Shown here piece after piece: positions 8,595 to 26,625 of a stretch of 38,384 nucleotides of DNA (its first letter is position 1; every line of letters begins with the position of its first letter). Below the pieces are notes generated by a model. The model did not search any database, was not told the origin of the DNA, and saw nothing but the letters and a program-made list of their open reading frames with translations. A program made the position numbers and the translations under genes. Source of the DNA: a virus; the IMG/VR virus record IMGVR_UViG_3300026097_001119, positions 1-38,384 of that record; one strand, given 5' to 3'.

Positions 8595-8945
8595 ATGGAC
8601 GAACAACTTAAAGCAGCATTAGAATTTGCCAATTATTCTCAAACATTAGCAATACAAAAAAAAACACTAAAAGAAAAAATTGATGCTCGATTGACCTATG
8701 GATGCAACGGTGGCATTTTTAAGATCGATAGATCATTAATTACATTCGTACAACTATTGATCGACCAAGAAAGACTTGAAAATGTTCCGTTACTTGACAT
8801 TAATGACACTCCGATCTTAATCACTAACTTAGTAGAATTTCGAGATGATATTTTAGATCGATACTTTACATCAGTATACGAATATTACGATCAATATGAA
8901 CACATCAAGAAATCTAGATCTGTTGAGAAGATAATCGATCTATGA
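8595..8945 (+). CDS. conserved phage-type protein of unknown function
   Basis: This 116-residue product is not recognised. It opens MDEQLKAALEFANYSQTLAIQ, with a charged helical first third, then a LITFVQLLIDQERLENVPLLD core and an acidic, tyrosine-rich end. No enzyme motif is seen. An ATG at 8571 in the same frame would add eight residues (MYVYYRYL), but the ATG at 8595 has AGG six bases upstream, and the earlier one has no ribosome site and falls inside the inverted repeat. It is the first gene of the array and its stop overlaps the next start by ATGA. Its size and charge would suit an adaptor or tail-assembly factor, which is only a guess. Confidence 0.6.
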   Translation: MDEQLKAALEFANYSQTLAIQKKTLKEKIDARLTYGCNGGIFKIDRSLITFVQLLIDQERLENVPLLDINDTPILITNLVEFRDDILDRYFTSVYEYYDQYEHIKKSRSVEKIIDL

Positions 8946-9805
8946 AAAACGGAGTAGTCTTATTTGCACATAACAGTCGTCAACTTGATTATGGGCTACT
9001 GTCAATTATTGCCGGAGGTCTTGCTAAGAAACATTTAACTGTTCCTGTTTCTTTAATTACGGACAAGGCAACGATTTTGTGGATGCAAAATAGTGGTTCT
9101 TATGATACTGCGGCAAAAGTCTTTGACCAAATAATTTTAGTAGACAATCAAGCAAATAATAATACGAGAACTATCAGTGATGGCAATTCTTCGCAAGTTG
9201 TTCCGTTTATTAATGCTAATAGATTTTCAGTTTGGGATTTAACGCCCTATGAAAATACTCTAATGATCGATAGCGATTATTTAATCTTTTCAGATACTCT
9301 CAGCAACTATTGGAATACTAAAAGCGATATACTAATTTCTCGTTCAATCAATGATATCAAAGGTGACAGGACCGGTGTATTAGAGAAACACGTTTCGGAA
9401 ACAGGTGTGCATCTATATTGGGCGACCACAGTAATGTTTAAAAAGAATAATCGTAGCAAAATATTTTTTGATTTAGTTAATTATATAAAAAATCACTATG
9501 ATTACTATTCTGATTTATTTAGATTTGATCCAAGACAATATAGAAATGATATTGCATTTAGTATAGCAAAACATATTTTAGATGGTTTCGAAGAAAATAT
9601 CGCAGATTCATTGCCCCCAATTTTGACGGTATTAGATAAAGACATACTAATAGATGTTTCCGACAGTGGTCGACTAAACGTCCTAGTGAATGATATTACA
9701 GACCCTAATAAATTTATCGCATCGTCAGTTATAGATACTGACATACACATTATGAACAAACAAAGTATTGTTAGAAATAAAGATCAATTATTAAAATTAT
9801 TATGA
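8942..9805 (+). CDS. putative GT-A-type glycosyltransferase
   Basis: The 287-residue product looks like a GT-A fold nucleotide-sugar transferase. It has an N-terminal beta strand (GVVLFAHN), a second strand with SLITD near residue 38, and a MIDSDYLIF segment whose D110-x-D112 is the expected metal/nucleotide-sugar binding DxD. A HLYWATTVMFKK strand follows near residue 155, a common position for the acceptor side in these folds. No signal or membrane segment is seen, so it acts in the cytoplasm. Donor and acceptor cannot be read from the sequence. It overlaps both neighbours by four bases. The next gene is a distant relative, suggesting a pair acting in series. Confidence 0.6.
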   Translation: MKNGVVLFAHNSRQLDYGLLSIIAGGLAKKHLTVPVSLITDKATILWMQNSGSYDTAAKVFDQIILVDNQANNNTRTISDGNSSQVVPFINANRFSVWDLTPYENTLMIDSDYLIFSDTLSNYWNTKSDILISRSINDIKGDRTGVLEKHVSETGVHLYWATTVMFKKNNRSKIFFDLVNYIKNHYDYYSDLFRFDPRQYRNDIAFSIAKHILDGFEENIADSLPPILTVLDKDILIDVSDSGRLNVLVNDITDPNKFIASSVIDTDIHIMNKQSIVRNKDQLLKLL

Positions 9806-10644
9806 ATTTTGGATATCTAATCGTAGTATCATCAAGCGAAACTGTCGATTATCTTCGACTAGCATACGTGTTAGCATTGAGTATTAAAAACACACAAAAA
9901 GAAGGGTATGACAAAGTAGCTCTAGTAATCGATGATAAAACAAAAATTGATAAGTTAACTTCACCTTGGGTTTTTGATCAAGTTATTCAATGGGATCAAG
10001 AAAAATTTTGGGACGGTCGTAGTTGGATGGATCAGTTGACTCCTTGGGATCACACCGTATGTCTTGATGCCGACATGATATTTGTAAGAGATTATAGTCA
10101 TTGGATTGATTACTTTGTTGAAAATTCTGAACTTTTTATTCCTTCATCAGCCTATACTTATAGAAATCAATTAATTGTTGATGATTATTATCGAAAAACC
10201 TTTACTTATAATCAGTTACCAAATCTTTATTCTTTTTACACATTTTTCAAGAAAGACTGTGCATTATGCGAGGAGTTTTTTACTCTAGGTAGATATATTA
10301 TTAAATACTCTAACGAATTTAAAAATGCTTATTTAAAAAATAGAAAACCTATAATTTTAGGAACCGACGAAGCATTTTCTCTCAGTGCAAGTATTTTAGG
10401 TATTGAAAATATTATTACATATGATTTAGAATTTCCTAGAGTAGTGCATATGAAACCTATGATACAGGACTGGCCGTGGCCTGCTGATAATTGGACAGAT
10501 CATGTAGGATGTTATATAAATGCCGACGGCAAAATTAAAATAGGTAATTATCAACAAACTAATATTGTTCATTATGTTGAAAAACAATTAATTACAGACG
10601 AAATAATTAATATATTTGAGGAAATTGCATGGAAGAAATCTTAG
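9802..10644 (+). CDS. putative GT-A-type glycosyltransferase (GT8-like layout)
   Basis: This 280-residue product has the same plan as its upstream neighbour: an opening strand FGYLIVVSS, a VALVIDD strand about residue 39-45, and CLDADMIFVRD with D89-x-D91 as the metal-binding DxD. A later ILGTDEAFSLS segment near residue 190 resembles the acidic segment that follows in family 8 transferases, and PRVVHMKP near 213 could supply the histidine often found there. That makes it the clearer of the two as a sugar transferase. The substrate is unknown. Its last 16 bases overlap the next gene. It is predicted to be cytoplasmic. Confidence 0.65.
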   Translation: MNFGYLIVVSSSETVDYLRLAYVLALSIKNTQKEGYDKVALVIDDKTKIDKLTSPWVFDQVIQWDQEKFWDGRSWMDQLTPWDHTVCLDADMIFVRDYSHWIDYFVENSELFIPSSAYTYRNQLIVDDYYRKTFTYNQLPNLYSFYTFFKKDCALCEEFFTLGRYIIKYSNEFKNAYLKNRKPIILGTDEAFSLSASILGIENIITYDLEFPRVVHMKPMIQDWPWPADNWTDHVGCYINADGKIKIGNYQQTNIVHYVEKQLITDEIINIFEEIAWKKS

Positions 10645-11249
10645 ACTTTGACGAGTTTGTTAAAAATCAACCTAGCAAAGATATAAAATATTGGGCGGTG
10701 TTCGCCGCTGAGACCGGCGAAGTGCAAGGAATATATCCAAATAATTCTGCTGATCACTATTTTGATAAGATTGAAATCAGCAAAGATCTAGCAGAATCGA
10801 TAATTGAAGGAACAGTTCAATTATCGTCTTGTTTTGTTGATATTACTAATGATAAATTAGAAATTATTGAAACTCAATCTTTAAGAAAAATTGATGATAT
10901 ATTACACAGAGTAATAGATGTAAAATGGTCAAATGCTAGTGATGCAGATATTGATATTAAATATTTTAAAAAAACAAAAAAAATGAAAGTATCTATGACT
11001 GATAGATTTTATGGAACAACGAAATCAAAAGCATCAAACTCAAAAAGAAAAATTGACTGGAAAGGGTCAACAGAAATGCTATTATTGATCACCGACTATA
11101 ATGATCCTAATATGTTATATTACACATTATCTTTAAAAATAACTGACTTGATCGGAAAAGATGTAATTTTTAAAAATATACAAGTTCCACAAAAGTTTAG
11201 CATTTATACAAGACGAATTTTTAAAAATTATGTAATGAGTATACAATGA
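10629..11249 (+). CDS. hypothetical protein within glycosyltransferase group
   Basis: This 206-residue protein is not recognised. The first 100 residues contain WAVFAAETGEVQGIYPNN and a KDLAESIIEGTVQLSSCFVD segment that reads like a small domain. The second half is lysine-rich and strand-rich (KTKKMKVSMTDRFYG, then LLLITDYNDPNML) and may be a beta-sandwich. There are no catalytic, metal or membrane signatures. It overlaps the preceding transferase by 16 bases and the next by four, so it is probably made in step with them. The WAVF...GEVQGIYP opening resembles small uncharacterised phage structural proteins, so a target or scaffold for the surrounding enzymes is possible. That is inference only. 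Confidence 0.5.
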   Translation: MEEILDFDEFVKNQPSKDIKYWAVFAAETGEVQGIYPNNSADHYFDKIEISKDLAESIIEGTVQLSSCFVDITNDKLEIIETQSLRKIDDILHRVIDVKWSNASDADIDIKYFKKTKKMKVSMTDRFYGTTKSKASNSKRKIDWKGSTEMLLLITDYNDPNMLYYTLSLKITDLIGKDVIFKNIQVPQKFSIYTRRIFKNYVMSIQ

Positions 11250-12154
11250 AGATTATAGAATTTGATGTTGTATTTTTAAGTTATGACGAACCAAATGCTG
11301 ATTTAAACTACGCTAATTTGTGTAGCAAGGTTCCTTGGGCTAAACGAGTGCATGGTATTAAAGGCTCAGACGAAGCGCATAAAGAAGCAGCTCGTATATC
11401 GGATACAGATTGGATTATAACTGTTGACGCTGACAACATTGTCGATACTAAATTTTTTAATTTAGATATAGATGTCGAAGATCCGAAAATACAAGTATAT
11501 AGTTGGCTGGGACAAAATAAAATCAACGGACTTCAATATGGCAATGGTGGATTAAAAATATGGCGTAAAGACTTTATACTTGGCATGAAAACACACGAAG
11601 CAGCAGATACTGAAAATGCTCAGGTTGATTTTTGTTGGGAAGATGGATATCGTCAATTTATGAAATGCTATAGTATAACTGATATTACCGGTAGTCCGTT
11701 CCAAGCATGGCGCGCAGGTTTTCGTGAAGGTGTTAAAATGACACTGATGGACGGAATTAAAGTACCTGCTCAAGAAATTCAACAACGTATTTGGTGGCAT
11801 AACATACACCGATTGCGCATGTGGTCAACTGTAGGTGCACATGAAGAAAATGGTGAATTTGCCGTACTGGGTGCAAGAATGGGAACATATATGGCTAATT
11901 GCACAGATTGGAATTATGTAGAGGTCAGGGATTTTGAAGTATTGAAAAACATTTATAATAAAGATGTTAAAATTATGGAAAACGATTCTGATATGGTTAT
12001 AAAAGCAATTAAAGACTTTGGTGATAAGATTAAATATCAATTGGGTCTACATTGGCCGTATTTTACTCCAGAACACAGTCAATACATATATGATCTATAT
12101 AATGAAACATTACACTTAAATCAAACCTACTATAGGGCTTCGAATGATTTATGA
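11246..12154 (+). CDS. putative GT-A-type glycosyltransferase with VDADN motif
   Basis: The 302-residue product begins FDVVFLSYDEPNAD, continues with RVHGIKGSDEAHKEAA and then WIITVDADNIVD. D61-x-D63 is the DxD expected of a GT-A transferase. A GNGGLKIWRK segment near residue 100 and the FREGVK segment near 160 are repeated almost in kind in the last module of the next gene (GYGGVKLLPR, FRECVK), so the two are paralogues. The HGIKG motif between the first strand and the DxD marks this subfamily, which I recall from T4-like phages but cannot tie to a known reaction. It is cytoplasmic by composition. It overlaps the previous gene by ATGA and the next by 11 bases. Confidence 0.65.
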   Translation: MKIIEFDVVFLSYDEPNADLNYANLCSKVPWAKRVHGIKGSDEAHKEAARISDTDWIITVDADNIVDTKFFNLDIDVEDPKIQVYSWLGQNKINGLQYGNGGLKIWRKDFILGMKTHEAADTENAQVDFCWEDGYRQFMKCYSITDITGSPFQAWRAGFREGVKMTLMDGIKVPAQEIQQRIWWHNIHRLRMWSTVGAHEENGEFAVLGARMGTYMANCTDWNYVEVRDFEVLKNIYNKDVKIMENDSDMVIKAIKDFGDKIKYQLGLHWPYFTPEHSQYIYDLYNETLHLNQTYYRASNDL

Positions 12155-13517
12155 TTTATTTTATGTTTCAAATCGAACAGTTAATCAAACTAGTTGGAAA
12201 ACATTCAAAGAACGTTTTCCAACTGCAAGATTATTGGAAAACATCACCTCTTTTAATCAAATTAAAAACAGAGCATTTACAAAATTATTTTGGGTAGTAT
12301 GGGACGACCTTATAGTCGAAGATGATTTTCTTTTTGATTATGTAGTACCTAAGTGGGATCAACAATATATTCATGTTTTTTTAAATAATTTATCTTACGA
12401 CGGAATTACATTATTTCCAAAATCAGCAGATATTTCTCACCGAGAATTTACTCATAGATTTTTTACAAACAAAAAAGAAGTAGATGTAATAGCAAGCACT
12501 CCAAGAGCCTACGATAAGTTTTATATTTCTACATATGACGAGTATTTAGAAGCAATAGAGAAAACATCAACTGAAATGTTCTGGGTAATATGGGACGAAG
12601 TTGAAATAACAAACGACTCGATATTCTCGATATATTTTGATCATCATAATGTTTATGATAGAAATGAGAATCACGTCTTTAAAAATATTTTTAAAAATGA
12701 AGAAACATATTTGCATGGTATAGTTTTATTTTCAAGATCGAAATTAATTACAAAAAAAGAATTCGATTATAGATTTTTGATTGAAAAAAAAGAACACGAC
12801 ATTGTTGTTAGCAAAATGAAACCTTTTGATATTGTTTTTATCAGTTATAAAGAAGCTAATGCAGATGATAATTACAAAAAACTTATAAGTCGTTTTCCTA
12901 ACGTAAAACGTGTGCATGGTATTAAGGGGATTCATCAAGCACATATAGAAGCAGCCAATATAGCATCGACAGAAATGTTTTGGGCCGTTGATGCCGATGC
13001 AGTTGTCGAGGATAGTTTTCATTTTGATTACGAAGTTTCGAGATATGATATCGAAACAGTTCATGTTTGGAGAAGCCGTAATCCGATTAACGACTTAGTT
13101 TACGGGTATGGCGGTGTTAAACTATTACCTAGAATATTAACATCTAATTTAGATATTACAGAACCGGATATGACTACTAGTATTTCGACAAAGTTTAAAT
13201 CAATGCCCGAGGTGTCGAATGTAACAGCATTTAATATTAGTCAATTCGATACGTGGAAATCAGCATTTAGAGAATGTGTAAAACTTTCAAGTCGAATTAT
13301 CATTAATCAAAAAGATGAAGAAACTCTAGAAAGATTAATGATTTGGAAATCAAAAGGAAAAGAAAAGCCATTTGGAGAATTTGCAATTAAAGGTGCTATT
13401 GATGGCGAGACCTACGGATTAAAATATAAAGATGATATTGAAGAATTAAAAAAAATTAACGATTTTGATTGGTTAAAAACTTATTATGAGCAACGAACAA
13501 AAAATATTCATTCTTAA
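12144..13517 (+). CDS. three-module GT-A-like protein, only the last module with an intact DxD
   Basis: The 457-residue protein is built from three related modules. Module 3 (about 227-457) copies the preceding protein: FDIVFISYKEANAD, RVHGIKGIHQAHIEAA, then TEMFWAVDADAVVED with D283-x-D285. Module 1 (about 3-118) and module 2 (about 120-225) keep the same frame of strands but are shorter; where the DxD should be they read LFWVVWDDLIVEDDF (W53-D54-D55) and MFWVIWDEVEITND (W150-D151-E152). Modules 1 and 2 also share an H/HVFxN and GITLFPKS/GIVLFSRS ending. Only module 3 is likely to be catalytic; the others may bind substrate or partners. Its last 32 bases overlap the first radical SAM gene, the longest overlap in the array. 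Confidence 0.65.
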   Translation: MIYDLFYVSNRTVNQTSWKTFKERFPTARLLENITSFNQIKNRAFTKLFWVVWDDLIVEDDFLFDYVVPKWDQQYIHVFLNNLSYDGITLFPKSADISHREFTHRFFTNKKEVDVIASTPRAYDKFYISTYDEYLEAIEKTSTEMFWVIWDEVEITNDSIFSIYFDHHNVYDRNENHVFKNIFKNEETYLHGIVLFSRSKLITKKEFDYRFLIEKKEHDIVVSKMKPFDIVFISYKEANADDNYKKLISRFPNVKRVHGIKGIHQAHIEAANIASTEMFWAVDADAVVEDSFHFDYEVSRYDIETVHVWRSRNPINDLVYGYGGVKLLPRILTSNLDITEPDMTTSISTKFKSMPEVSNVTAFNISQFDTWKSAFRECVKLSSRIIINQKDEETLERLMIWKSKGKEKPFGEFAIKGAIDGETYGLKYKDDIEELKKINDFDWLKTYYEQRTKNIHS

Positions 13518-14859
13518 ACAGAAAGTAGAACAGATAAATTCTGCCAGTCCTAGTTTCTGTACAGCCAAGTGGTTGCAGACTACCTTGTATTTACAGAATG
13601 GGTATAATCACAGTTGCCACCATCCTAGTCCTCATAAAATTCCTCTCGAAGAAATTCAAGAGAATCCGGCAGCACTGCATAATAGTGAATACAAGAAACA
13701 ACAGCGTGTCATGATGAAATCTGGCAGTCGACCTAAAGAGTGTGATTACTGCTGGAAGATAGAAGATTTAGGTAAGGATTACTTCAGTGATAGGCATTAT
13801 AAAACAGCCGATTATTGGGCATGGGATCGTTTTGAAGAAATTGCCAATAATGACCCGTTAGATAATGTTTATCCTGCGTATCTAGAAGTTAGTTTCAGCA
13901 ATGCTTGTAATCTCAAATGTAGTTATTGTAGTCCCGAAATAAGCAGTAAATGGTTAGATGAAATCAAGCAACACGGACCATATCCTATAACACAGAGTAA
14001 TAATGACATAGAATGGTATAAATCTGTAGGAAGATACCCATACAAAAATAGTGAATACAATCCCTATGTAGAAGCATTTTGGAAATGGTTTCCGGATGCT
14101 TTACCCCATCTGCGAGTGTTTAGAATTACAGGCGGAGAACCGCTATTGAGTAAAGATACTTGGCGTGTGTTTGATTATCTAAAACAACATCCTCAAAAAG
14201 ATTTAGAATTAGCTGTTAATACTAATTTGGCAGTTGACGATTCTTTAATCGATAAACTTATCACTGAAATTGGAGAATTAAAAAACTGCGTTAAACATAT
14301 AGATGTTTATACAAGTTTAGAAAGTACAGGGAAACAAGCAGAGTATTCAAGATACGGATTAAACTTTGATCAATGGATCGCCAACGTTAGAAAAGTATTA
14401 GACAATACCGATGTTCGTGTTAGCATTATGACAACTATTAATATTTTAAGTCTTCCTACGTTTAACGAATTTATTGATTTAGTAATGGCACTAAGAGCAG
14501 AATATAATCACAGTTATGAATACAACAGGGTATCCTTGTCTATTAACTATCTTCGCTGGCCTCCGCAATTAAGTGTAACTTTATTACCAGAGCAGATGAG
14601 GATCGCATATGCTGACAGCATTTTATCACACGCAGAAACATGGTTAAAATATTTTAGAAAACATCAATATGCTAGACTGTACTTAGAAGAATGGGATCAG
14701 GTACAGAGATTTTGCGAATATTTAAAAACAAATGAAATCAATGTCGAAGGCAGAATAAATTTTGTGAGATATATAAAAGAGTATGATCGCCGCCGAGATA
14801 CAGATTTTGTCAAAATATTTCCTGAATATCAGCAATTTTTAAGAGAGTGGGATGCCTAA
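13486..14859 (+). CDS. N-terminal-twitch radical SAM protein A
   Basis: This 457-residue radical SAM enzyme has the S-adenosylmethionine cluster motif CNLKCSYC (C141, C145, C148) and GGEPLL at 216-221. Ahead of the core is a cysteine domain (C25, C44, C86, C89; SPSFC, SCHH, ECDYCW) that should hold an auxiliary iron-sulfur cluster, the layout of the twitch-domain radical SAM proteins annotated in phages. Such enzymes start chemistry with a 5'-deoxyadenosyl radical; the substrate here is unknown. It is a tandem paralogue of the next gene with identical N-terminal cysteine spacing. No ribosome site precedes the ATG, which sits inside the end of the previous gene, so translation is probably coupled. 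The length before SPSFC matches its paralogue, supporting this start. Confidence 0.85.
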   Translation: MSNEQKIFILKQKVEQINSASPSFCTAKWLQTTLYLQNGYNHSCHHPSPHKIPLEEIQENPAALHNSEYKKQQRVMMKSGSRPKECDYCWKIEDLGKDYFSDRHYKTADYWAWDRFEEIANNDPLDNVYPAYLEVSFSNACNLKCSYCSPEISSKWLDEIKQHGPYPITQSNNDIEWYKSVGRYPYKNSEYNPYVEAFWKWFPDALPHLRVFRITGGEPLLSKDTWRVFDYLKQHPQKDLELAVNTNLAVDDSLIDKLITEIGELKNCVKHIDVYTSLESTGKQAEYSRYGLNFDQWIANVRKVLDNTDVRVSIMTTINILSLPTFNEFIDLVMALRAEYNHSYEYNRVSLSINYLRWPPQLSVTLLPEQMRIAYADSILSHAETWLKYFRKHQYARLYLEEWDQVQRFCEYLKTNEINVEGRINFVRYIKEYDRRRDTDFVKIFPEYQQFLREWDA

Positions 14860-16357
14860 GAAAAAAGAAGAAACATTAGTAGATTATAGAAATAGAACTA
14901 TAGACTCGGTTAGTCCTAGTTTTTGTGCGGCTAAGTGGTTAAATGCTACTATATGGTTAGGCAGTGGATCCACTGCCAGTTGTCATCATCCTCCCGCTCA
15001 CCAAATTCCATTAGAGGAAGTTAAAAACAGTTACAAAGCAATTCACAATACTAAACACAAAAAACTAATGCGTAAAATGATGTTAGAAGGCGAACGCCCT
15101 AGAGAGTGTGAGTATTGTTGGAAGATGGAAGATATTTCTAAAGACACAGTTAGTGACAGAGTGTTTAAAACTATTATCTATAAAGATGATGAAATAAAAT
15201 CTATAGCGTTAAATCCCTATACTGACGATGTTGATTTAAAAACTCTCGAAATTAGTTTTGATAGAGTATGTAATCTCGCCTGTTCGTACTGCAATGCAAG
15301 TTTTAGCACCACTTGGGCCAAAGATATCAAAAACAATGGACCCTATCAAAATCTTGTAAGCGACGGCGCTGGAGCATTTCATCAAGATGGCAGTTGGTCT
15401 CAACCGTATACAGAAGACGAAGACAATCCCTATATACAGGCATTTTGGAAATGGTGGGATAACGGGTTGAGTCAAACTCTAGACGAATTAAGAATCACCG
15501 GCGGCGAACCGTTGATGAGCAGTAATACCTGGAAATTATTTGATTGGTTTAACAATCAAGATTCCTCTATGAGATTTGCTATTAATAGTAATTTGATTGC
15601 CAAAGACGAAATCATCGATAAATTGATCGAAAAAAGTAAAAACATAAAAGATTTTCATATCTACACTAGTTGTGAAGCAGTTGGGAAACAAGCAGAATAT
15701 ATCAGAGATGGCCTAGATTATGAACAATGGAAACACAATTTGATTAGAGTAGGCCGTGAAGCCGACCTTAAAGGGTTGCATATCATGATGACTATCAACA
15801 GTTTATGTCTTTTCAGTATAACTGATTTCCTTGATGAAATATATGAAATTAAATCCGCATGGAAAAGTAAAAGTCCAACAGTAAGTTTAAATCTTTTGCG
15901 CTTTCCGAGTTTTCAAAGTCCTCTTGCGTTGCCTGACCATATTAAAATTTATTGTCGAACTCAACTGCAACAATGGTATGAAAAAAATAGAGAAGGAGAA
16001 TACTGGCACGAATTCGAAAAAGCCAGTATTGAAAGGCTAATAGATTATCTTGATGTAGTTGATGCTCCGCATAGAAGAACCAGTAATAAAATTACACTGT
16101 GGAGAGATTTTAAAACATTTTATAAGCAATATGACCAACGTAGGGGAAAATCTATAACTGTATTTCCAGAAATATTAACACAATGGCTAGAACAAATACC
16201 AGAAACACAATTAAACGTTGTTCAAGGATTAATTAATGGTAACAGTACTAATCAATATAACAATGACGAAGAATTAAAAAGATTAGCAGAACAAGAAGGT
16301 TGGATACTAAATCCAGATAGTAAAAATATTGACGATCCGTTGGCAAAATATGAGTAA
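14852..16357 (+). CDS. N-terminal-twitch radical SAM protein B
   Basis: This 501-residue protein is the tandem copy of the preceding gene. N-terminal cysteines fall at the same residues (C25, C44, C86, C89), with SPSFCAAKWL, SCHHPPAH and ECEYCWKMED. The core cluster motif is CNLACSYC (C140, C144, C147), followed by ITGGEPL. After the barrel it has about 45 extra C-terminal residues (from roughly IPETQLNVVQGLINGN onward) that its paralogue lacks, rich in Asn and Asp. Both A and B keep SDR and KT residues just after the twitch region, so they may share a substrate class or act as a pair. It overlaps A by eight bases and the next gene by eight. Confidence 0.85.
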   Translation: MPKKKEETLVDYRNRTIDSVSPSFCAAKWLNATIWLGSGSTASCHHPPAHQIPLEEVKNSYKAIHNTKHKKLMRKMMLEGERPRECEYCWKMEDISKDTVSDRVFKTIIYKDDEIKSIALNPYTDDVDLKTLEISFDRVCNLACSYCNASFSTTWAKDIKNNGPYQNLVSDGAGAFHQDGSWSQPYTEDEDNPYIQAFWKWWDNGLSQTLDELRITGGEPLMSSNTWKLFDWFNNQDSSMRFAINSNLIAKDEIIDKLIEKSKNIKDFHIYTSCEAVGKQAEYIRDGLDYEQWKHNLIRVGREADLKGLHIMMTINSLCLFSITDFLDEIYEIKSAWKSKSPTVSLNLLRFPSFQSPLALPDHIKIYCRTQLQQWYEKNREGEYWHEFEKASIERLIDYLDVVDAPHRRTSNKITLWRDFKTFYKQYDQRRGKSITVFPEILTQWLEQIPETQLNVVQGLINGNSTNQYNNDEELKRLAEQEGWILNPDSKNIDDPLAKYE

Positions 16358-18321: not shown

Positions 18322-19478
18322 AACAATGCATTTTACCCTGGATACATCTCGAATCAACATCTCAAGGAGAAGTCAAGCCCTGTTGTCTATATAACTCTAC
18401 TATAACTATACACAACGAGTCAGCTAACCTAACCAAGCATTCATTAACGGAAATATGGCATTCAGACTACATGGATGATTTGAGAACAGAGTTTTCTAAG
18501 GGAAACATGCCCTCGGGCTGTCAATCGTGCTGGGATACAGAAGCAGCAGGCAAAATCTCTAAGAGGCAAAATAGTAATAAACAATACGAACGTCATCTAA
18601 AAAGAATAAAAGAGCCGTTACAAAATCCTGTTTATTTAGATTTAAAATTAGGAACTGTTTGTAATTTAAAATGTAGATCCTGTTCCAGTGTGAGTAGTTC
18701 CAAATGGGTATCAGATGAAATCAAAATAATGGGCAAACCTTATAACAGTTCAAACGGTTATTGGATTGAAACAACAGATCCATTATGGAATGAACTTGAA
18801 AACATTTTACCGGATATCGAACATTTTGATTTTACTGGTGGAGAACCGTTTTTAGTTAAACGACATTTTAATCTCTTAGAAAAATGTGTAGAAAAAGGCT
18901 ATGCAAAAGATATAACAATACACTACAATACAAATGGTACAGTAGAACCTACTGATAGGATGTTTGAATTGTGGGATCAATTTAAATCTGTTGATGTGAT
19001 GTTTAGTATTGATGGTATAGATAAAAAATTTGAATATCTACGACATCCCGGAAAATGGGAACAATTAGAAAGCAATTTTCGAAAGTTTATTAACTACCCT
19101 CGTATCTACACATCAATATGCTATTCGGTAACAGTTTTTAACGTTGTGTATATGAACGAATTTATCAATTGGTTCCTTAAACACAATCTCGAAGAACATC
19201 GCCTTTATTTTAATTTAATTTGGAATCCGGAATATTTAAACATACAGTCGATGTCTAACACTAATAAAGAACAGATTAAGAATTTTTTAGAAAATACAAA
19301 AACAGAATCAGATTTCTTAAATCAACGAGTGTTAGAAGTTGTAAATTTTATGTTTGATAGAAATTTGCAATTAAAAGATACAAACGAGTTTAGTAAAATT
19401 ACCAAACAGTTAGACACAATAAGAGGAGAATCTTTTTCTGAAACATTTCCAGAATTAGATAAAATTTTAAAATTATGA
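18318..19478 (+). CDS. N-terminal-twitch radical SAM protein D
   Basis: This 386-residue protein carries an N-terminal auxiliary cysteine domain (C4, C22, C23, C68, C71) with ILPWIHL, KPCC and EIWHSDYMDDLR, then the radical SAM core with CNLKCRSC (C115, C119, C122) and TGGEPFL at 173-179. The C-x17-CC-x44-C-x2-C spacing is close to that at the C-terminus of radical SAM protein E. Late in the barrel it has YTSICYSVTVFN, matching YFYINFTLSVLN in protein C. It is separated from C by an SGNH hydrolase gene and overlaps both neighbours by ATGA. Cytoplasmic, oxygen-sensitive chemistry is expected. Substrate unknown. Confidence 0.85.
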   Translation: MKQCILPWIHLESTSQGEVKPCCLYNSTITIHNESANLTKHSLTEIWHSDYMDDLRTEFSKGNMPSGCQSCWDTEAAGKISKRQNSNKQYERHLKRIKEPLQNPVYLDLKLGTVCNLKCRSCSSVSSSKWVSDEIKIMGKPYNSSNGYWIETTDPLWNELENILPDIEHFDFTGGEPFLVKRHFNLLEKCVEKGYAKDITIHYNTNGTVEPTDRMFELWDQFKSVDVMFSIDGIDKKFEYLRHPGKWEQLESNFRKFINYPRIYTSICYSVTVFNVVYMNEFINWFLKHNLEEHRLYFNLIWNPEYLNIQSMSNTNKEQIKNFLENTKTESDFLNQRVLEVVNFMFDRNLQLKDTNEFSKITKQLDTIRGESFSETFPELDKILKL

Positions 19479-20482
19479 GTACAGCAGGGCAGGATTTTTT
19501 CGACAAAGATTTTTTTGACAATCAAACAGTTGTATTGTGTGACTATCCTATAGAAAAAATGAAATGGTATAGTTCAATTAATAGCGACATTATTGACGAT
19601 TGGAAAACAGAAAATTTTGTGACTTCGGAAGTAGAAGCCATTGCCAAGTCTATGCTGGATAATTTTGATGCCTGCGTACTGGCAATTCCTATTGCAGGCG
19701 AAAATAAAATCAAACATTATTTTGAAAAAGTATTATGGCTAATACAAAGTTATTGTGAAAACGGATGGAAAAATCCGTTAAAAGGAATTAATCATCTTGA
19801 TAATGGACAGATAGTAATTCATCCGGGAACAAACAGATGTGTTGCCTCAAAATTTTTAAAGTGTAAAACTTTATCGGTATTAATTAATATCAATAAACGA
19901 CAAACATTGTTGTCATCTATTAAAAATTACAAAACGATTAACAACGAGCAAGAATTGCGTTCTTCGTTAGTTAGTAAAGAAAAAATACTGTGGAGAACAG
20001 AAAATCAAGAAGAACTGTGGATCAACGGTGTAAATCAATCAGATGAATATTATAAAGATTTTACCTATGAGTTTTTAGGTACAGATGCTTGGCCGAAATC
20101 GTATTTGTTAAGTCAGTGGAGTAACTGTGTTTATAATTTTCTACCATTAAAAATTTATGTTGATCACGCAGTTGATATTAATATTATATCTCAACAATCA
20201 GAAGCAATGAAACAGTTTTCTTTTACAGATAGAGATAGCGGAAAGCAAGTGAAGTTTGATTTTGAATTTACACCTGTAGATAATTTTGATAAAATAAATG
20301 ACACCGGCTCGTTTGTTTATTTAGGCAAATACTCTAGATTTCAAAAAAACGTCTTCGAACTATTATTTTTCGTCAGTCCTCTTTACAAATATTCATCAAC
20401 AAATGATAAAAGTATTGTAGTACATAACTCGTTTGCAACAGAAGAAAAAACTTTAACAATTCCGGATCATTATGTCGGATGA
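19475..20482 (+). CDS. hypothetical protein between two radical SAM genes
   Basis: This 335-residue protein is not recognised with confidence. Residues about 105-130 read GINHLDNGQIVIHPGTNRC; a Gly-His-Pro-Gly-x-x-Arg segment of this type faintly recalls the ParB/sulfiredoxin-like fold, where a GxHR motif binds nucleotide. No other nuclease or ATPase motif is seen. The remainder is a charged alpha/beta sequence with LFFVSPLYKYSS near the end. It has two acidic, aromatic stretches (TYEFLGTDAWPKSYLLSQW). With ATGA to radical SAM D and an 11-base overlap to E, it is tightly tied to these enzymes, so it may be their partner or substrate carrier. That is inference. Confidence 0.5.
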   Translation: MSTAGQDFFDKDFFDNQTVVLCDYPIEKMKWYSSINSDIIDDWKTENFVTSEVEAIAKSMLDNFDACVLAIPIAGENKIKHYFEKVLWLIQSYCENGWKNPLKGINHLDNGQIVIHPGTNRCVASKFLKCKTLSVLININKRQTLLSSIKNYKTINNEQELRSSLVSKEKILWRTENQEELWINGVNQSDEYYKDFTYEFLGTDAWPKSYLLSQWSNCVYNFLPLKIYVDHAVDINIISQQSEAMKQFSFTDRDSGKQVKFDFEFTPVDNFDKINDTGSFVYLGKYSRFQKNVFELLFFVSPLYKYSSTNDKSIVVHNSFATEEKTLTIPDHYVG

Positions 20483-21329
20483 TATCTTTAACATTAATGA
20501 TCATTTTGATTTTAGAAATGATCGATACAGTAAAATAGACAAGACTAACGAAAAATTATTAGGTCTCGCTATTGTTGAAATCAATCCTACTGAGTTATGT
20601 AATAGAACCTGTAGTTTCTGCCCTCGTAGTGACCCTAGTGTTTATCCTAATAGAAATTTAAACATGACAACAGGGACTGCACAACTATTAGTTGATCAGT
20701 TATTAGCAGCAGGTTTTAGTGGCGACATACACGTTACAGGATATGGCGAACCGTTATTAAATCCCGACATTTTAGATATCATCAAAATTTTCTCTCAGCA
20801 TTTCTATGTAGAAATAATTACCAACGGTGATCGATTAACTAATAATCATTATACTCACGAACAATTATATCACGCTGGTTTAAATTTTTTAATCGTTGAT
20901 TGTTATGATGGCGATGATCAGTATGACAATTTTAGAAAAATTTTAAGTGATTCTTGTGTGCCGTACCGAATTAGAAAACACTACGACAACGGCAACACTG
21001 ATTTAATACAGATATATAATTTTAACAATCGAGGAGGTATGCTTTCTAAAAAAAGCATAAACCGTCCTTGTTGGTTACCGTTCTACAAAGCATTTATAGA
21101 CTGGAATGGAGATCTAGGATTATGCTGCAACGATTGGGCAAGGAAGCAAATATTTGGAAATATAAAACAAAAAACAATTTCAAAAATGTGGATGAGTAAA
21201 CAGTTTATAGATATAAGAAAAAATCTAGCCAACGGCGACAGATATAAAATTAAATCTTGCGAAAATTGCAATACAAAAGGAACATTGCAAGGAAAAGAGA
21301 GTGTAGAAGTATGGAAAAAACAACTATAG
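20472..21329 (+). CDS. radical SAM protein E with C-terminal SPASM-type domain
   Basis: This 285-residue enzyme has CNRTCSFC (C43, C47, C50) and GYGEPLL in place of the usual GGEP (residues 90-96). At the C-terminus RPCWLPFYKAFIDWNGD is followed by CC (C218, C219) and CENC (C263, C266), with C200 at the start: a SPASM-type auxiliary cluster domain in the canonical C-terminal place. The order is therefore the reverse of proteins A-D. Known SPASM proteins of this arrangement often modify peptides or nucleotide-sugar type molecules; the target here cannot be read. It is the last radical SAM gene, overlapping the next gene by 19 bases. Confidence 0.85.
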   Translation: MSDDIFNINDHFDFRNDRYSKIDKTNEKLLGLAIVEINPTELCNRTCSFCPRSDPSVYPNRNLNMTTGTAQLLVDQLLAAGFSGDIHVTGYGEPLLNPDILDIIKIFSQHFYVEIITNGDRLTNNHYTHEQLYHAGLNFLIVDCYDGDDQYDNFRKILSDSCVPYRIRKHYDNGNTDLIQIYNFNNRGGMLSKKSINRPCWLPFYKAFIDWNGDLGLCCNDWARKQIFGNIKQKTISKMWMSKQFIDIRKNLANGDRYKIKSCENCNTKGTLQGKESVEVWKKQL

Positions 21330-22309
21330 TTACCGCAGAGTTCGAAACTTGTCCACATCCGCGCATTGCACCGATAATTAAAAATTTTAGTAACTACCAA
21401 AGCCGAGAGTTTCAAATATGTGAGCATGTAGCAGGAATTGGTAAAATTGAGTATGACAAAAATATTCCGTTGGTAATTTTTCATTCTGAAGGAGATTCCC
21501 AGTATGTTGACATTGATTTTTTAAGTCAGTACGGCTCTGTACTACATTGCAATTACACGTTATCTAAAACTAAAGGAAAATTTTTTAACTATTGGGCCTA
21601 TGATTATCTACAGAGATTAAAGGCCTACCAACAACCAGTTAATGTATCTAATAATTTTATTCCAAAATTTTTGTGTCTAAACGGAAGACCTGAGTGGCAC
21701 AGATATTATGTTCTACAAAGACTTGTTGATAAAAATCTTTATAATCGAGGTTATATTAGTTTTTTAAATAGATACAATACTCTCAATAATGAGATTATAT
21801 ATGAGACTTTTTTAGACTTATATTCAGGGACCCCTGCATTTGTAAAAAATATTTTTGAAAAAAAACAACTTTTAGTTTTAGACAAATCTAATAACGAAAT
21901 ACATAAAAACGATAGATCCCATTCAGAATACATTTATAAAGACACCAGTGTTTCGTTAGTTACAGAAACATATCCCGATGCAGAACGAGGATTATTTATA
22001 ACTGAAAAAAGTTATAAGCCTATTGCAAATTGCCATTTTCAAATTTGGATATCGCAACCTGGCATGGTAGATTTTTTTAGAAATTTAGGGTTTGATATGT
22101 TTGATGACATTATAGATAATTCCTACGATGATATATACGATGATATAAAAAGATTCGAACAGGCATTAAACAGTTTAGAAACCTTGTTATCCGATTGTTG
22201 CAGTTTTAGTGAAGTTAAGAAGAAACAACTTCAGTATCGATTAAATAAAAATCAAAATAAGTACTTAAACATGAAATTATCAGATAAAGAAATAGAGTCG
22301 TGGTTATGA
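21311..22309 (+). CDS. putative glycosyltransferase with fucosyltransferase-like motif, copy 1
   Basis: The 332-residue product has FLCLNGRPEWHR at 120-131, LVTET at 216-220 and FITEKSYKPI at 229-238, then QPGMVDFFRNLGFDMF. The VTET...TEK..KP core recalls the donor-binding region of family 10 fucosyltransferases, where a (V/I)TEK segment binds GDP-sugar, so a GT-B transferase is likely but the donor is a guess. Two later genes have the same pattern. An in-frame TTG at 21257 would extend it, but the ATG at 21311 is preceded by GAGAG and overlaps the previous stop by only 19 bases. No signal or membrane segment. Confidence 0.55.
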   Translation: MEKTTIVTAEFETCPHPRIAPIIKNFSNYQSREFQICEHVAGIGKIEYDKNIPLVIFHSEGDSQYVDIDFLSQYGSVLHCNYTLSKTKGKFFNYWAYDYLQRLKAYQQPVNVSNNFIPKFLCLNGRPEWHRYYVLQRLVDKNLYNRGYISFLNRYNTLNNEIIYETFLDLYSGTPAFVKNIFEKKQLLVLDKSNNEIHKNDRSHSEYIYKDTSVSLVTETYPDAERGLFITEKSYKPIANCHFQIWISQPGMVDFFRNLGFDMFDDIIDNSYDDIYDDIKRFEQALNSLETLLSDCCSFSEVKKKQLQYRLNKNQNKYLNMKLSDKEIESWL

Positions 22310-23121
22310 AAAAATTCTACATATTCGGAGGATGCAGTTTTACAGACATGCTTAATTCGTGGGCAAGAGTTATACAAGACTCATATCTATCAAATTCTAA
22401 CGATTCAAGAAACTGTGCTAAGTCTGGAGCAGGAAACAAATTTATTTCGGCTGCTGTTATTGACACAGCGTTAAAAGTGGAAAAATTAGGATACTTACCG
22501 GATATCTCTGTTATGTGGTCGAGTCCTGTACGATTTGAATTGCCCATAGATCAAAAAGAAACACCTTTTGCTAGCGATCTTTTTGAGACAAACAAACGGC
22601 AGAATAATGATTTTAATCCCGGAATATACCTACATCAAGATGTAACCGGTGAAGTTGACAAGTCTTCAATCGACAATTTTTGGTTAATGCAGTGCAGTAA
22701 AGTTACTAAAAAAACTAAATGGTCTCATAAATCTTATATTGATGATCAATACGTAGATGCTTTTGAAAAATTTCAAAACTTTCTTTGGAATTCTAAATTT
22801 CAGTGGTATAATACCTTAACGTCGATATTATCAATGCAGTGGCTTTGCGAAAGCAAGAATTGGCCTTATAGATTTACAACATTTAGAGAAGGGCTTGGCG
22901 AGTATATACAATCTTGTCCAAAACAATTTTTAAGCCTGCAACAAGAAATAAACTGGGATAAGTTTGTTTTTACTGACGACAATTATGGTGGGTTACGAGA
23001 ATTTACACTGAACACAATTAACACTTGGGACGACGGTTATGACAATCATCCAAGTCATGATGCTCATCGACTATTTGTTGAAGAGTTTTGGCTACCTAAA
23101 TTTCCGGACGTGTATCGATGA
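22306..23121 (+). CDS. SGNH/GDSL-type hydrolase 2
   Basis: This 271-residue protein has FGGCSFTD with serine S11 as the nucleophile, SGAGNKFIS with N44 in the block II/III region, VMWSSPVRFELP near 70-80, and a C-terminal HPSHDAHRLF that provides the Asp/His pair. It is the second hydrolase of the array and differs clearly from the first in the middle. It may deacylate a sugar or acyl-peptide intermediate (inferred from neighbours). A GTG six bases before would add two residues, but the ATG at 22306 gives the standard ATGA overlap. No signal peptide. Confidence 0.75.
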   Translation: MKKFYIFGGCSFTDMLNSWARVIQDSYLSNSNDSRNCAKSGAGNKFISAAVIDTALKVEKLGYLPDISVMWSSPVRFELPIDQKETPFASDLFETNKRQNNDFNPGIYLHQDVTGEVDKSSIDNFWLMQCSKVTKKTKWSHKSYIDDQYVDAFEKFQNFLWNSKFQWYNTLTSILSMQWLCESKNWPYRFTTFREGLGEYIQSCPKQFLSLQQEINWDKFVFTDDNYGGLREFTLNTINTWDDGYDNHPSHDAHRLFVEEFWLPKFPDVYR

Positions 23122-24425
23122 TAACATTATTTTATCAAACAGAATCTAAAAATTTTACTATACCTAATTCCATTCCTTTGCATTTAAGAACTAACAACAG
23201 CCACGATTTTAAAAGTGTCAAACCGATTTTCATTGCAGATATATGTGCATATCTTTCAATACCGTTTAAACAGATTTCCAAGAACGCCTGGAGCGGCGAA
23301 ACAGCTTATTATCATATAGAAATAGAATGGATAGATCAGGCTATGGTCTATAGAAATATATTTGAATGGATAGATCAAGATGTATTAGAAATTATTAAAG
23401 ATCCATTATCCAATTTACGGTTGTTACTTTGGTTCTCAAACGAAGGGTTTTCGTTATCTATGCCTAGATTCATGGAAATTATAGATTTTTGTATTAGGGA
23501 TTTAAATATACCTCCCGAAAAAGTTTATTTTGTATTCGGTGACATTAATATTGAAAAAAATTATAAATATTGGTTAAAAACAAAGGGCTATTCGTTGATT
23601 AATATATACGGCTTTGATAGTTTTGAAACTACCTATCATAATGAATGTAGAATGTTAGAAAATACAGTACACAAAAATATTTTTCCTAGAGAAGATGATA
23701 GAATTAGAAACTTAGATAAAAGTCGAAACAAACGATTTATTTTTAGAAATGCTAACCCTCGTGAACATAGAGTTTATTTTGCTTCTGAATTAAAAAGACG
23801 AGATCTATTAAAAGATTCTTATTATAGTTGGTTGAATAGGTATTACATTCCCGAAGAGGATATGTTTGAGTGCTTTATTAAAAAATATTGTAAAGATGCA
23901 TCTATAATAGAAGAAATATATTATCATATGAAAGAATTTATCGATAATAGTCCTTACGTAATTGATCATACTGCTGACAATATCGGCGAAGGATTAAATC
24001 AGCGATATCTCAATCCAGAAATGTTTGCAGATAGTTATTTTACATTTGTAACAGAAACAACATATGATAACACACCCACTGAAAATGTTTTGTTTATTAC
24101 AGAAAAAATATATCAACCTATTGTACAATATCATCCATTTATTGTTGCGGCCTGTCCAGGTACATTAGAATACATGAGGAAAAGCGGATATCAAACATTT
24201 CCTGAGTTATTCGATGAACGTTATGATCAAGAACAAGACTTAAAGACCAGAACCAATATGATAATAGATAATATTGAAAGAGTTTGTTCAATGCCAGTTG
24301 ATGAATTACACTTTATATATTATTCTGAACAATTCCAACAAAAATTAATTCATAATAAAGATTTATTTGTAAAAGGCAAAGGCCGACAAAAATGGGAGAA
24401 TGCGATCAAATGGCTATCCCGTTAA
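23118..24425 (+). CDS. putative glycosyltransferase with fucosyltransferase-like motif, copy 2
   Basis: The 435-residue protein is the longest of three related products. FIFRNANPREHRVYF (about residue 209) replaces FLCLNGRP of copy 1, FVTETTYDN sits about residue 310 and LFITEKIYQPIVQ about 327, then CPGTLEYMRKSGYQTFPELFDERYD. The first 200 residues have no counterpart in copy 1 of the same clarity and may be an acceptor or regulatory domain. A GT-B fold with sugar-nucleotide donor is inferred from the shared core. It overlaps the SGNH hydrolase before it by ATGA and copy 3 by 16 bases. Confidence 0.55.
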   Translation: MITLFYQTESKNFTIPNSIPLHLRTNNSHDFKSVKPIFIADICAYLSIPFKQISKNAWSGETAYYHIEIEWIDQAMVYRNIFEWIDQDVLEIIKDPLSNLRLLLWFSNEGFSLSMPRFMEIIDFCIRDLNIPPEKVYFVFGDINIEKNYKYWLKTKGYSLINIYGFDSFETTYHNECRMLENTVHKNIFPREDDRIRNLDKSRNKRFIFRNANPREHRVYFASELKRRDLLKDSYYSWLNRYYIPEEDMFECFIKKYCKDASIIEEIYYHMKEFIDNSPYVIDHTADNIGEGLNQRYLNPEMFADSYFTFVTETTYDNTPTENVLFITEKIYQPIVQYHPFIVAACPGTLEYMRKSGYQTFPELFDERYDQEQDLKTRTNMIIDNIERVCSMPVDELHFIYYSEQFQQKLIHNKDLFVKGKGRQKWENAIKWLSR

Positions 24426-25408
24426 TTTACGATAAAGGATTTTCTAACAACATTATAGGAGATCATGATCAAACAATAAAGTCGAGAATTATATCGCAAC
24501 TTGACTCTGATGATCTTTTTGTTAATACAACTTGGATTGAACTTGATACCGATCTGTTATCATTATTAGATAAAAGACCTAACAGAATTATTTGTTATAG
24601 CGGCACAGATTGGGAAAACACTGTATGCAGAAAGCCAGTTCATGATTTTTTATCAAAATATAATACTGTCTATATTGGAAATAAAAACAATGAATACTAT
24701 TTTAGTTTTTGGTTAGACTTTGTTTATGACCATATGTCTAAATATCAAACTTTTGATCCTTTCAATTTTGATATTACAAAAACATTTATGTGCTTGAATA
24801 GAAAACCGCATGTTCACCGGATTGAATTAGTCAAAGAACTGTATAATAAAAATTTACAACACAGCGGATATTTAAGCCTTGGCACTTTTCCAAATAACGG
24901 CGTACCTTGGGATTACAAAGAACTTAACGTTCCAATTATGTTGGAAAACGATGTAAAAAATGTAGAAGGTGATCATGCTGTTTCGGGAACAGCCGGTGGA
25001 ATAACAAATGATATTACCGGTCTAGGACATCCTGAAAATTGGAACAGTCATTTCCTTAATGTAGTAACAGAAACTACGATACATACTAATGTATTTTTAA
25101 GCGAAAAAATATTTAAACCAATATTAGGGATGCGCCCGTTTGTAGTTCTAGGTGATGATGCAGTATATGATAAATTACATGAATGGGGATTCGACACATT
25201 TGATGATATTTTAGGTACAGGATACAAAGGAAAATATCATACTGATCGAATTGATTGGATACTTGATATCGTGTATAATTTAAATAGAGAAAAAAGCTTA
25301 AATAAACTTCTTTCGAGTTTAAAAACTAGATTAGAATTTAACAATAATCAATTTAGACACATAGCCTTATCAAATAAAGAAAAAATATACAATTTAGGAT
25401 TAAGATGA
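24410..25408 (+). CDS. putative glycosyltransferase with fucosyltransferase-like motif, copy 3
   Basis: The 332-residue product has FMCLNRKPHVHR (about residue 125), VVTETTIHTN (about 218), VFLSEKIFKPILGMRPF (about 229) and WGFDTFDDIL, the same order and spacing as copies 1 and 2. The last cluster of basic and acidic residues precedes a helical end. An ATG at 24392 in frame would add six residues (MGECDQ), but the ATG at 24410 fits the short overlaps seen elsewhere; both lie inside the previous gene. It joins the dehydrogenase gene by ATGA, which suggests the dehydrogenase may supply or change its donor sugar. Confidence 0.55.
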   Translation: MAIPLIYDKGFSNNIIGDHDQTIKSRIISQLDSDDLFVNTTWIELDTDLLSLLDKRPNRIICYSGTDWENTVCRKPVHDFLSKYNTVYIGNKNNEYYFSFWLDFVYDHMSKYQTFDPFNFDITKTFMCLNRKPHVHRIELVKELYNKNLQHSGYLSLGTFPNNGVPWDYKELNVPIMLENDVKNVEGDHAVSGTAGGITNDITGLGHPENWNSHFLNVVTETTIHTNVFLSEKIFKPILGMRPFVVLGDDAVYDKLHEWGFDTFDDILGTGYKGKYHTDRIDWILDIVYNLNREKSLNKLLSSLKTRLEFNNNQFRHIALSNKEKIYNLGLR

Positions 25409-26625
25409 ATATATCGTTTATAGGTACAGGTAAATTAGGAATGCCTTGTGCTGAAGCCATAGCACAAAAAGGTCATAGAGTTTCTGGATACGATGTAGCA
25501 GAAAGAACTAGCAAAATAATATCAGTGGTTGACTCTATTGAAGAGTGTATTAAAGGTAAAGATATTGTTTTTATTGCTGTTCCTACTCCTCACGATCCTG
25601 CATACGATGGAAGAAAACCAACCGCACATCTAGATCCTAAAGATTTTAATTATGACATTGTAAAGCAAGTGTTAGTAGAAGCCGATATGCACATGTCTAA
25701 AGATCAATTATTAGTTCTTATTTCAACAGTATTACCAGGAACAGTTCGTAGAGAATTTATACCTTTAATTTCAAATACAAGATTTGTATATAACCCTTAC
25801 CTGATCGCTATGGGAAGTGTTGCGTGGGACATGGTCAATCCCGAAATGGTAATGATAGGAACAGAAGACGGAAACGAAACCGGAGATGCAAAACAACTAA
25901 TTGATTTTTATAAGAGCGTAATGGAAAATGATCCTAGATATGTTGTCGGAACATGGGACGAGTGTGAATGTATCAAAGTGTTTTACAACACCTTTATTAG
26001 TGCAAAGATTGGTCTAGTTAATATGATACAAGATGTGGCACAGAAACAAGGTAATATTGATGTTGATGTAGTTACCAGTGCATTGGCAAACTCTACTATG
26101 CGTATTACAGGTCCTCAATATATGACTGCTGGAATGGGCGATGGAGGTGCATGTCACCCGAGAGACAATATTGCATTGCGGTATATGTCACAAGAACTAG
26201 ATCTTGGCTATGATTTGTTTGACAGTATAATGACAGCACGAGAAGTTCAGGCTAAAAATATTGCAAAAGAATTAGTTAGGCACGCTGCTGAAAACAATAT
26301 GAACATATATATTCACGGCAAGGCTTATAAACCCGATGTTGAATACTGTGACGGAAGTTATAGTTTATTGATAGGATATTTTTGTAAAGAAGCAGGATAT
26401 GAACCGATCTATGTTGACCCATTAACGGGTGACAACATAGAGTCTGTACATGGCGTAGTATTGCTAGCACATGATAGAAAGATTACATACGATTATCGAG
26501 GATTTGATCAATTACAAAATCTTTACTGCAAAATTGAAGATGGGTCGATAATTGTTGATCCGTGGCGGAAATTTCCTAAATCTGATAATTTAACAGTAAT
26601 TCACTACGGTAATACAAGATTTTAA
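25405..26625 (+). CDS. nucleotide-sugar (UDP-glucose/GDP-mannose type) dehydrogenase
   Basis: This 406-residue enzyme of the UDP-glucose/GDP-mannose dehydrogenase family oxidises the C6 of a nucleotide sugar to a uronate using NAD. It has GTGKLG (7-12) for NAD, AVPTPHDP near 59, the FYNTFISAKIGLVN helix with the conserved Lys/Asn type residues, and the catalytic cysteine C250 in GDGGACHPRDN. That loop differs from the usual GGSCFPKD: Phe is replaced by His and Lys by Arg, so substrate choice may be unusual. A C-terminal domain (GKAYKPDV, YDPLTGD-like YVDPLTGD) is present, so the enzyme is full length. It ends the array, and its TAA shares bases with the opposite-strand gene. Confidence 0.85.
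   Translation: MNISFIGTGKLGMPCAEAIAQKGHRVSGYDVAERTSKIISVVDSIEECIKGKDIVFIAVPTPHDPAYDGRKPTAHLDPKDFNYDIVKQVLVEADMHMSKDQLLVLISTVLPGTVRREFIPLISNTRFVYNPYLIAMGSVAWDMVNPEMVMIGTEDGNETGDAKQLIDFYKSVMENDPRYVVGTWDECECIKVFYNTFISAKIGLVNMIQDVAQKQGNIDVDVVTSALANSTMRITGPQYMTAGMGDGGACHPRDNIALRYMSQELDLGYDLFDSIMTAREVQAKNIAKELVRHAAENNMNIYIHGKAYKPDVEYCDGSYSLLIGYFCKEAGYEPIYVDPLTGDNIESVHGVVLLAHDRKITYDYRGFDQLQNLYCKIEDGSIIVDPWRKFPKSDNLTVIHYGNTRF

Follow-up and report, generated by a model that had tools for sequence, protein, structure and literature searches.

Why would a phage carry glycosyltransferases (GTs) and radical S-adenosylmethionine (SAM) enzymes in one long array directly behind its fibre genes? This question is raised by the IMG/VR virus record IMGVR_UViG_3300026097_001119 (38,384 bases, referred to here in its whole length as the window), in which 18 open reading frames (ORFs) on the plus strand, g1 to g18, extend from an ATG at 8595 to 26625, immediately after four large fibre-like genes of one family (F) and a smaller one (f). 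Pelagimyophage host recognition clusters, described in 2020, contain fibres, GTs and radical SAM cassettes, and were read as modifying the host envelope (PMC7029224); 12 radical SAM genes in the T4-like marine genome TARA_ERS488813_N000010 were noted in 2017 and discussed, in the part of that paper considered here, in terms of Fe-S metabolism (PMC5332604). Our analysis points, with a probability of roughly one half, to a late, cytoplasmic glycosylation-and-editing cassette acting on one of the phage's own structural proteins, of which a fibre (F or f) is the most likely.

An overlapping array with a fixed core

A preliminary description, made from the sequence alone, had reported 18 rightward genes with all 17 junctions overlapping, directly after five fibre-like genes, and the ORF coordinates bear out both statements. 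From g1 to g18 the overlaps are, in order, 4, 4, 16, 4, 11, 32, 8, 8, 8, 4, 4, 11, 19, 10, 4, 34 and 4 bases; the same description had counted eight overlaps of exactly four bases, a figure that falls to seven within the array and is reached only if the convergent junction with the next minus-strand gene (26622-26625) is included. An in-frame ATG also lies at 8571, upstream of the g1 start adopted here, at which the family alignment begins. Among the 1,342 array junctions of relatives, 1,233 (92%) overlap, 363 of them by exactly four bases, as against only 12 of 120 fibre-fibre junctions, which argues that the overlap within the array is not due to chance; the gap between f and g1 has a median of 57 bases.

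These relatives come from scans of IMG/VR seeded with g7, g9 and g5, which yielded more than 200 loci and from which family profiles were built. The order F-f-g1-G-G-g4-H-(H)-radical SAM, where G is the family of g2 and g3 and H that of g5 and g6, recurs in more than 100 non-redundant viral contigs; behind this core stand one to nine radical SAM genes, mixed with SGNH-like genes, genes of a family with a TEK-type motif (T) and dehydrogenase genes. With g5 as seed, which is blind to radical SAM genes, and counting loci with at least 2.5 kb downstream or at least 4.2 kb upstream, a radical SAM gene was found downstream in 38 of 39 loci (in four of them on the opposite strand only) and fibre genes upstream in 38 of 38; with g9 as seed, H was found within 4.5 kb upstream in 63 of 72. 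The linkage to fibre genes suspected from the single record, and with it a fixed gene order, is therefore strongly supported among relatives.

The distal part of the array is far more variable. Minimal versions (L305, L318) end at a single radical SAM gene, and relatives that share the flanks of the window, for example a 5'-3' exonuclease-type protein with 76-83% identity, differ in what follows the core: among loci with conserved flanks and different array content (L015, L019, L055, L082), the distal array holds only g7, g8 and another SGNH-like gene in L019, only g7 in L055 and one g9-like gene in L082, and L007 and L008 retain g9 to g18. The same flanks with differing distal arrays indicate a fixed core followed by interchangeable genes; hence the earlier suggestion that the whole set forms one pathway holds for g1 to g6 with a radical SAM gene and fails for the distal genes.

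Late-promoter motifs, virion proteins and solubility

The T4-type late-promoter motif NATAAATA was found in relatives near -30 in front of F genes (48 of 85), f genes (23 of 119) and g1 genes (40 of 122, mostly at -33 to -36), compared with 1.4% of random segments and 14 of 697 radical SAM genes; before the genes of the GT core it was absent from this position (0/281 for G, 0/86 for g4, 0/259 for H). With such motifs before fibres and g1 and none before GT genes, the array looks co-expressed with virion genes, and g1 probably opens a translationally coupled operon whose late expression coincides with that of the fibres. Eight of 10 contigs tested contain the major capsid protein gp23, which marks the contigs as T4-like. 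Three late-promoter-like sites in the window itself are listed in Table 1. A window-wide search for the T4 late promoter TATAAATA with one mismatch allowed returned matches at chance level, so that only the positional test of NATAAATA in relatives is informative; likewise, a sigma-70-type scan of 7400-9300 gave only a chance number of sites.

As for the genes in front of the array, the first F gene encodes a Phage Tail Collar domain (Pfam Collar, 7e-19) and the fourth has a weak match to Peptidase_G2, an intramolecular chaperone, just under the cut-off (Pfam, 3e-5). The F homologues gp358 and gp359 and the f homologue gp360 of Pseudomonas phage PA5oct are labelled as virion proteins detected by electrospray ionization tandem mass spectrometry (ESI-MS/MS), and the F and f families are thus virion proteins. 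The enzymes behind them appear to be soluble: among the 1,529 genes of 117 non-redundant arrays, hydropathy analysis predicted any membrane segment in only 11 proteins, one of them polytopic, and found no flippase, polymerase, lipid-carrier initiator or exporter/transporter of the O-antigen or capsule type. In the absence of such membrane machinery a cytoplasmic target is the simplest, and detection of F and f homologues in virions, together with soluble array enzymes, favours the phage's own fibre as acceptor.

Enzyme families of the array

The seven GT-type proteins recognised in the preliminary description fall into three groups. The profile of the G family (g2, g3) matches the GT8 enzyme glycogenin-1 (E = 7e-4) in its N-terminal part only, and among 30 sequences D91 is invariant and D89 nearly so; sequence kinship and a DxD motif together suggest that g2 and g3 are GT8-like. 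For g5, an AlphaFold2 model (predicted local distance difference test score, pLDDT, 88.8) found the PBCV-1 capsid glycosyltransferase 2p6w as its best Foldseek match (E = 6e-6) and gave Z values of about 10-11 to several GT-A enzymes; D61 and D63 are invariant in the family, and the predicted fold is also near that of SunS, a peptide-glycosylating enzyme. g5 is accordingly predicted to be a GT-A glycosyltransferase with a DxD motif, and g6 joins it as GT-A by predicted fold. The third group, the T family (g14, g16, g17), is GT-like by its invariant E...TEK-type signature only: comparison with GT10 gave a weak motif-level match (probability 13.5; P = 0.002 across 48 columns around TEK, with controls at 0.04 or higher), so that GT status is here inferred from a motif. 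A profile search of the PDB with this family gave nothing, and a first search for GT10 seeds in 14 genomes was empty.

Five radical SAM proteins had been claimed, and all five hold. g7, g8, g9 and g11 pass, at full length, the 170-bit cut-off of NF033640, the NCBIfam model for N-terminal-twitch radical SAM proteins; g13, a shorter protein, fails it (43.6 bits) and is of the SPASM type. The CxxxCxxC motif is kept in all 273 full-length homologues, and C7, C26, C67 and C70 in the N-terminal part, as well as C121, C125 and C128, are invariant among 33 sequences. In profile comparison, the twitch region was matched by that of BtrN (4m7t; E = 4e-7), in which this domain is C-terminal and not N-terminal as here, and the radical SAM core matches SkfB, viperin and BlsE, among others. 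BtrN is a cyclitol dehydrogenase, which oxidises a cyclitol; activity on cyclitols and glycosides, as known for BtrN and NeoN, provides a precedent for radical sugar editing. NeoN is an epimerase that acts on a finished aminoglycoside (PMC10991966). The AlphaFold2 model of g9 (pLDDT 85) had two Foldseek matches with E <= 0.001, the peptide maturases CteB and SkfB; as a guide to substrate, the fold search was set aside since it does not separate peptide from sugar.

The remaining assignments are less specific. The two SGNH-type hydrolases of the earlier account, g10 and g15, are SGNH-like at the level of motif columns (a G-C-S block, conserved N and R, and a C-terminal H), a Pfam search having given no match, and the nucleotide-sugar dehydrogenase proposed there is confirmed as a UDP-glucose dehydrogenase (g18) by PHROG and Pfam. 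Searches of Pfam and the PDB gave no match for g1, for which a known tail-fibre domain (DUF4376-like) was considered and found no support in Pfam, PHROG or the PDB; a PDB profile search with g4 also gave no match.

Table 1. Positions of the array genes, the fibre genes and the late-promoter-like sites in the window
Feature	Position	Strand	Basis or remark
Four large fibre/baseplate-associated genes, F family (690, 601, 601, 589 aa)	84..7617	+	Pfam; PA5oct homologues
Late-promoter-like GATAAATA	5818..5825	+	Motif scan; 30 bases before fibre gene 5848
Late-promoter-like AATAAATA	7587..7594	+	Motif scan; 41 bases before f
f, 303-aa fibre-tip-like protein	7628..8539	+	Profile matches PA5oct gp360, E = 6e-52
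Late-promoter-like CATAAATA	8563..8570	+	Motif scan; 32 bases before g1
g1, conserved 116-aa protein opening the operon	8595..8945	+	Family consensus starts at this ATG
g2, GT8-like glycosyltransferase (G family)	8942..9805	+	Family profile vs glycogenin-1
g3, GT8-like glycosyltransferase (G family)	9802..10644	+	D89/D91 (DAD); G profile
g4, conserved core protein between G and H	10629..11249	+	Short or long forms in relatives
g5, GT-A glycosyltransferase (H family)	11246..12154	+	Predicted fold
g6, long H-family protein, g5-like stretch C-terminal	12144..13517	+	H family profile
g7, N-terminal-twitch radical SAM	13486..14859	+	NF033640, 339.5 bits
g8, N-terminal-twitch radical SAM	14852..16357	+	NF033640, 309.7 bits
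g9, N-terminal-twitch radical SAM	16350..17552	+	NF033640, 400.8 bits
g10, SGNH-like hydrolase or acyltransferase	17545..18321	+	Motif columns
g11, N-terminal-twitch radical SAM	18318..19478	+	NF033640, 369 bits
g12, rare accessory, 4 loci only	19475..20482	+	Family profiles
g13, radical SAM with C-terminal SPASM	20472..21329	+	Pfam Radical_SAM 1.6e-9, SPASM 3.4e-14
g14, TEK-type GT-like protein (T family)	21311..22309	+	Motif
g15, SGNH-like hydrolase or acyltransferase, GTG start	22300..23121	+	Motif columns
g16, TEK-type GT-like protein (T family)	23118..24425	+	Motif
g17, TEK-type GT-like protein (T family)	24392..25408	+	Motif
g18, UDP-glucose/nucleotide-sugar dehydrogenase	25405..26625	+	phrog_9148 E = 7e-97; Pfam UDPG_MGDP_dh domains

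Elsewhere in the window, on the minus strand, a second UDP-glucose dehydrogenase-like gene (phrog_9148, E = 1.5e-38) lies beside a GT-like gene (36408-38356), and QueE-like and FolE-like genes lie close together (32473-36354), possibly as part of a 7-deazaguanine (preQ0-type) DNA modification pathway.

Distribution and related arrays

Matches to g5 occur in at least 598 stretches of IMG/VR, in none of 50,697 isolate phage records and, with a positive control, in none of 398 sampled pseudomonadote genomes; a common system thus appears to be invisible to cultured phage biology. Members of NF033640 over the cut-off were found in only three of the same 398 genomes. The preliminary description had named occurrence apart from fibre genes, or in cells with another gene set, as evidence that would count against it, and this was encountered in part, as stand-alone radical SAM homologues in cells and as some phage arrays away from fibres. 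Cellular context was considered as a clue to substrate and dropped, as the 65 operon-like neighbours had no theme in common and just two of them matched GT2. In bacterial assemblies, N-terminal-twitch radical SAM genes were also seen in tandem runs, at L096:8000-20000, in a Bacteriovoracaceae metagenome-assembled genome, and at G297:C19:4283-9859; these may be phage contigs or genuine cellular arrays. Among cultured phages, radical SAM relatives of g9 are found in KVP40-like Vibrio phages at about 22-24% identity, with nadV and QueC-like genes as neighbours in KVP40 and PagP in K566, and no GT core was recognised there.

Several further arrays deserve mention, with gene names taken from reading the sequences only. 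At L038:1200-18596, five radical SAM genes and an SGNH-like gene adjoin CsgF/CsgG-like and curlin-like genes, and a carbamoyltransferase-like gene follows; this locus ties the published pelagimyophage curli region to radical SAM arrays. Secreted Asn/Thr-repeat (TNTNTN...) proteins are encoded beside radical SAM arrays at L029:3688-4809 and L023:4038-5159, accompanied by desaturase-like and 2-oxoglutarate (2OG)-hydroxylase-like genes. A methyltransferase-like protein of about 200 aa (YGGW.GVL...D.D..C...VINTS.EH) recurs beside radical SAM genes in different array types (L009:15404-16009, L029:8057-8668, L023:7210-7917, L038:9291-9938).

Two cultured jumbo phages, Agrobacterium phage Atu_ph07 (NC_042013; L323:12811-19549) and Sinorhizobium phage Phosso (PV764938; L324:11999-19742), carry a cassette whose annotation goes no further than hypothetical or radical SAM. 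It encodes three or four radical SAM proteins, one of them weakly like the peptide maturases DynA/PapB/DarE, a cupin/JmjC-like protein and a 296/306-aa protein with a conserved CHxSCHxSCHxSRSRR at its end, and is a candidate for a system of the kind that modifies ribosomally synthesized and post-translationally modified peptides (RiPPs).

Discussion

Taking up the operon layout, enzyme families, near-obligate linkage, late-promoter motifs and solubility described above, we propose that the operon would be transcribed late, from a promoter before g1 and behind the fibre genes, and that its soluble enzyme set would, while virions are being assembled, attach a glycan to a structural protein (most likely F or f) in the cytoplasm. 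A core of two GT8-like and one or two GT-A enzymes would install the sugars, possibly helped by g1 and g4 as adaptors or chaperones. The sugars, or the region where they are attached, would then be edited by at least one radical SAM enzyme through radical oxidation, epimerisation or dehydration; partnership with GTs and a BtrN-like twitch make us lean towards action on sugars rather than on protein. Variable distal genes would diversify the product, through acyl transfer or removal by SGNH-like proteins, TEK-type GT-like proteins, supply of UDP-glucuronate and extra radical SAM enzymes.

A number of observations weigh against this proposal. To our knowledge no modified virion protein is known, the T and SGNH assignments rest on motifs, and the predicted fold of g9 lies as close to enzymes that modify peptides (CteB, SkfB, anSME) as to those that modify sugars or nucleotides (BlsE, DesII, viperin). 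Radical SAM genes stand on the opposite strand in L250, L254, L257 and L296, so that co-transcription is not universal; in nine of the 72 loci seeded with g9, the 4.5 kb upstream contain no H gene, and cellular g9 homologues stand alone, with no glycan neighbourhood. GT8 enzymes also act on lipopolysaccharide (LPS) cores, and the array may encode soluble GTs of LPS-core type, a reading that stands beside that of a fibre acceptor. Finally, the radical SAM arrays of L038, L029 and L023 are not next to fibres but have curli-like or secreted-repeat genes as neighbours, which leaves room for a surface-glycan role in part of the family.

The block might instead modify an envelope glycan of the infected cell (LPS core, O-chain or another surface polymer), and so block competing phages or keep new virions off debris, with soluble GT8-like and GT-A enzymes working at the cytoplasmic face and the product leaving by the export route of the host. 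GTs in pelagimyophage host-recognition clusters have been read in this way (PMC7029224), and such a role would suit both the radical SAM arrays that adjoin phage curli-type genes and a carbamoyltransferase-like gene and the presence of UDP-glucose dehydrogenase, SGNH-like and methyltransferase-like genes, which are typical of glycan decoration. We nevertheless consider it unlikely, given late-promoter motifs instead of early expression, nearly no membrane proteins in 117 arrays, a GT core that near-obligately adjoins fibres and the lack of g5-family homologues in 398 pseudomonadote genomes. A further reading, that the fibre protein itself is the substrate of the radical SAM enzymes (cross-links, epimerisation or oxidation in the manner of RiPP maturation) and the GTs carry out a separate or parallel modification, is rather improbable. 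While the two best-scoring matches of g9 are peptide maturases, and Atu_ph07 and Phosso carry an unrelated cassette of three or four radical SAM genes behind the same fibre family, the radical SAM proteins of the Atu_ph07 cassette are of a different type, GTs are invariable partners of the fibre-adjacent N-terminal-twitch enzymes, no free ORF lies between the 18 genes, leaving no short precursor gene inside the array, and no recurrent Cys/His repeat tails were found among array proteins of relatives. Production of a diffusible small molecule, or modification of a nucleotide or other non-virion target, would agree with a mixture of tailoring enzymes that resembles natural-product clusters and with BtrN being among the twitch radical SAM enzymes; the fixed fibre linkage and late-promoter motifs, and the fact that no exporter or carrier protein was recognised, make it very improbable.

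With glycosylation and editing of a fibre thus as the preferred reading, comparison with known systems helps to delimit what may be new. GT and radical SAM cassettes in pelagimyophage islands are already known, and our array resembles them in belonging to T4-like aquatic phages and in lying in a variable island where fibres occur with GTs and radical SAM cassettes; however, that cluster was described as a variable island with LPS-type GTs (PMC7029224), whereas here we find a conserved, ordered core with a late-promoter motif before g1, near-obligate linkage of GTs, radical SAM genes and fibres, and interchangeable distal genes. TARA_ERS488813_N000010 likewise has many radical SAM genes, and the part of the report considered here draws no link to fibres or GTs (PMC5332604). 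In mycobacteriophages, subunits of the capsid and the tail tube are glycosylated (Freeman et al. 2023, cited in PMC12619734); radical SAM enzymes are not mentioned in the portion of that source considered, and the target here would be fibres. PBCV-1 capsid glycosylation (2p6w, A64R) is also virus-encoded glycosylation of a virion protein, but in a eukaryotic virus, and g5 shares only the GT-A fold. A description of the conserved core, the late-promoter motif before g1, the near-obligate coupling of GTs and radical SAM genes to fibres, or the absence from isolate phages was not found in the literature.

In a wider sense, it is a tentative idea, which may well not hold, that a common, uncultured class of T4-like phages possesses a late system of its own whose N-terminal-twitch radical SAM enzymes are dedicated to editing the glycan, or a glycan-bearing peptide, of the receptor-binding fibre. 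If it were true, fibre chemistry would form a second, non-protein layer of diversity in host range or evasion, which phages would alter by exchanging distal enzyme genes at one fixed position. The GT core, late-promoter motif and fibre together offer a defined setting for testing what N-terminal-twitch radical SAM enzymes act on, and, if fibres are indeed glycosylated and radically edited, prediction of host range from fibre sequence alone would miss a chemical layer.

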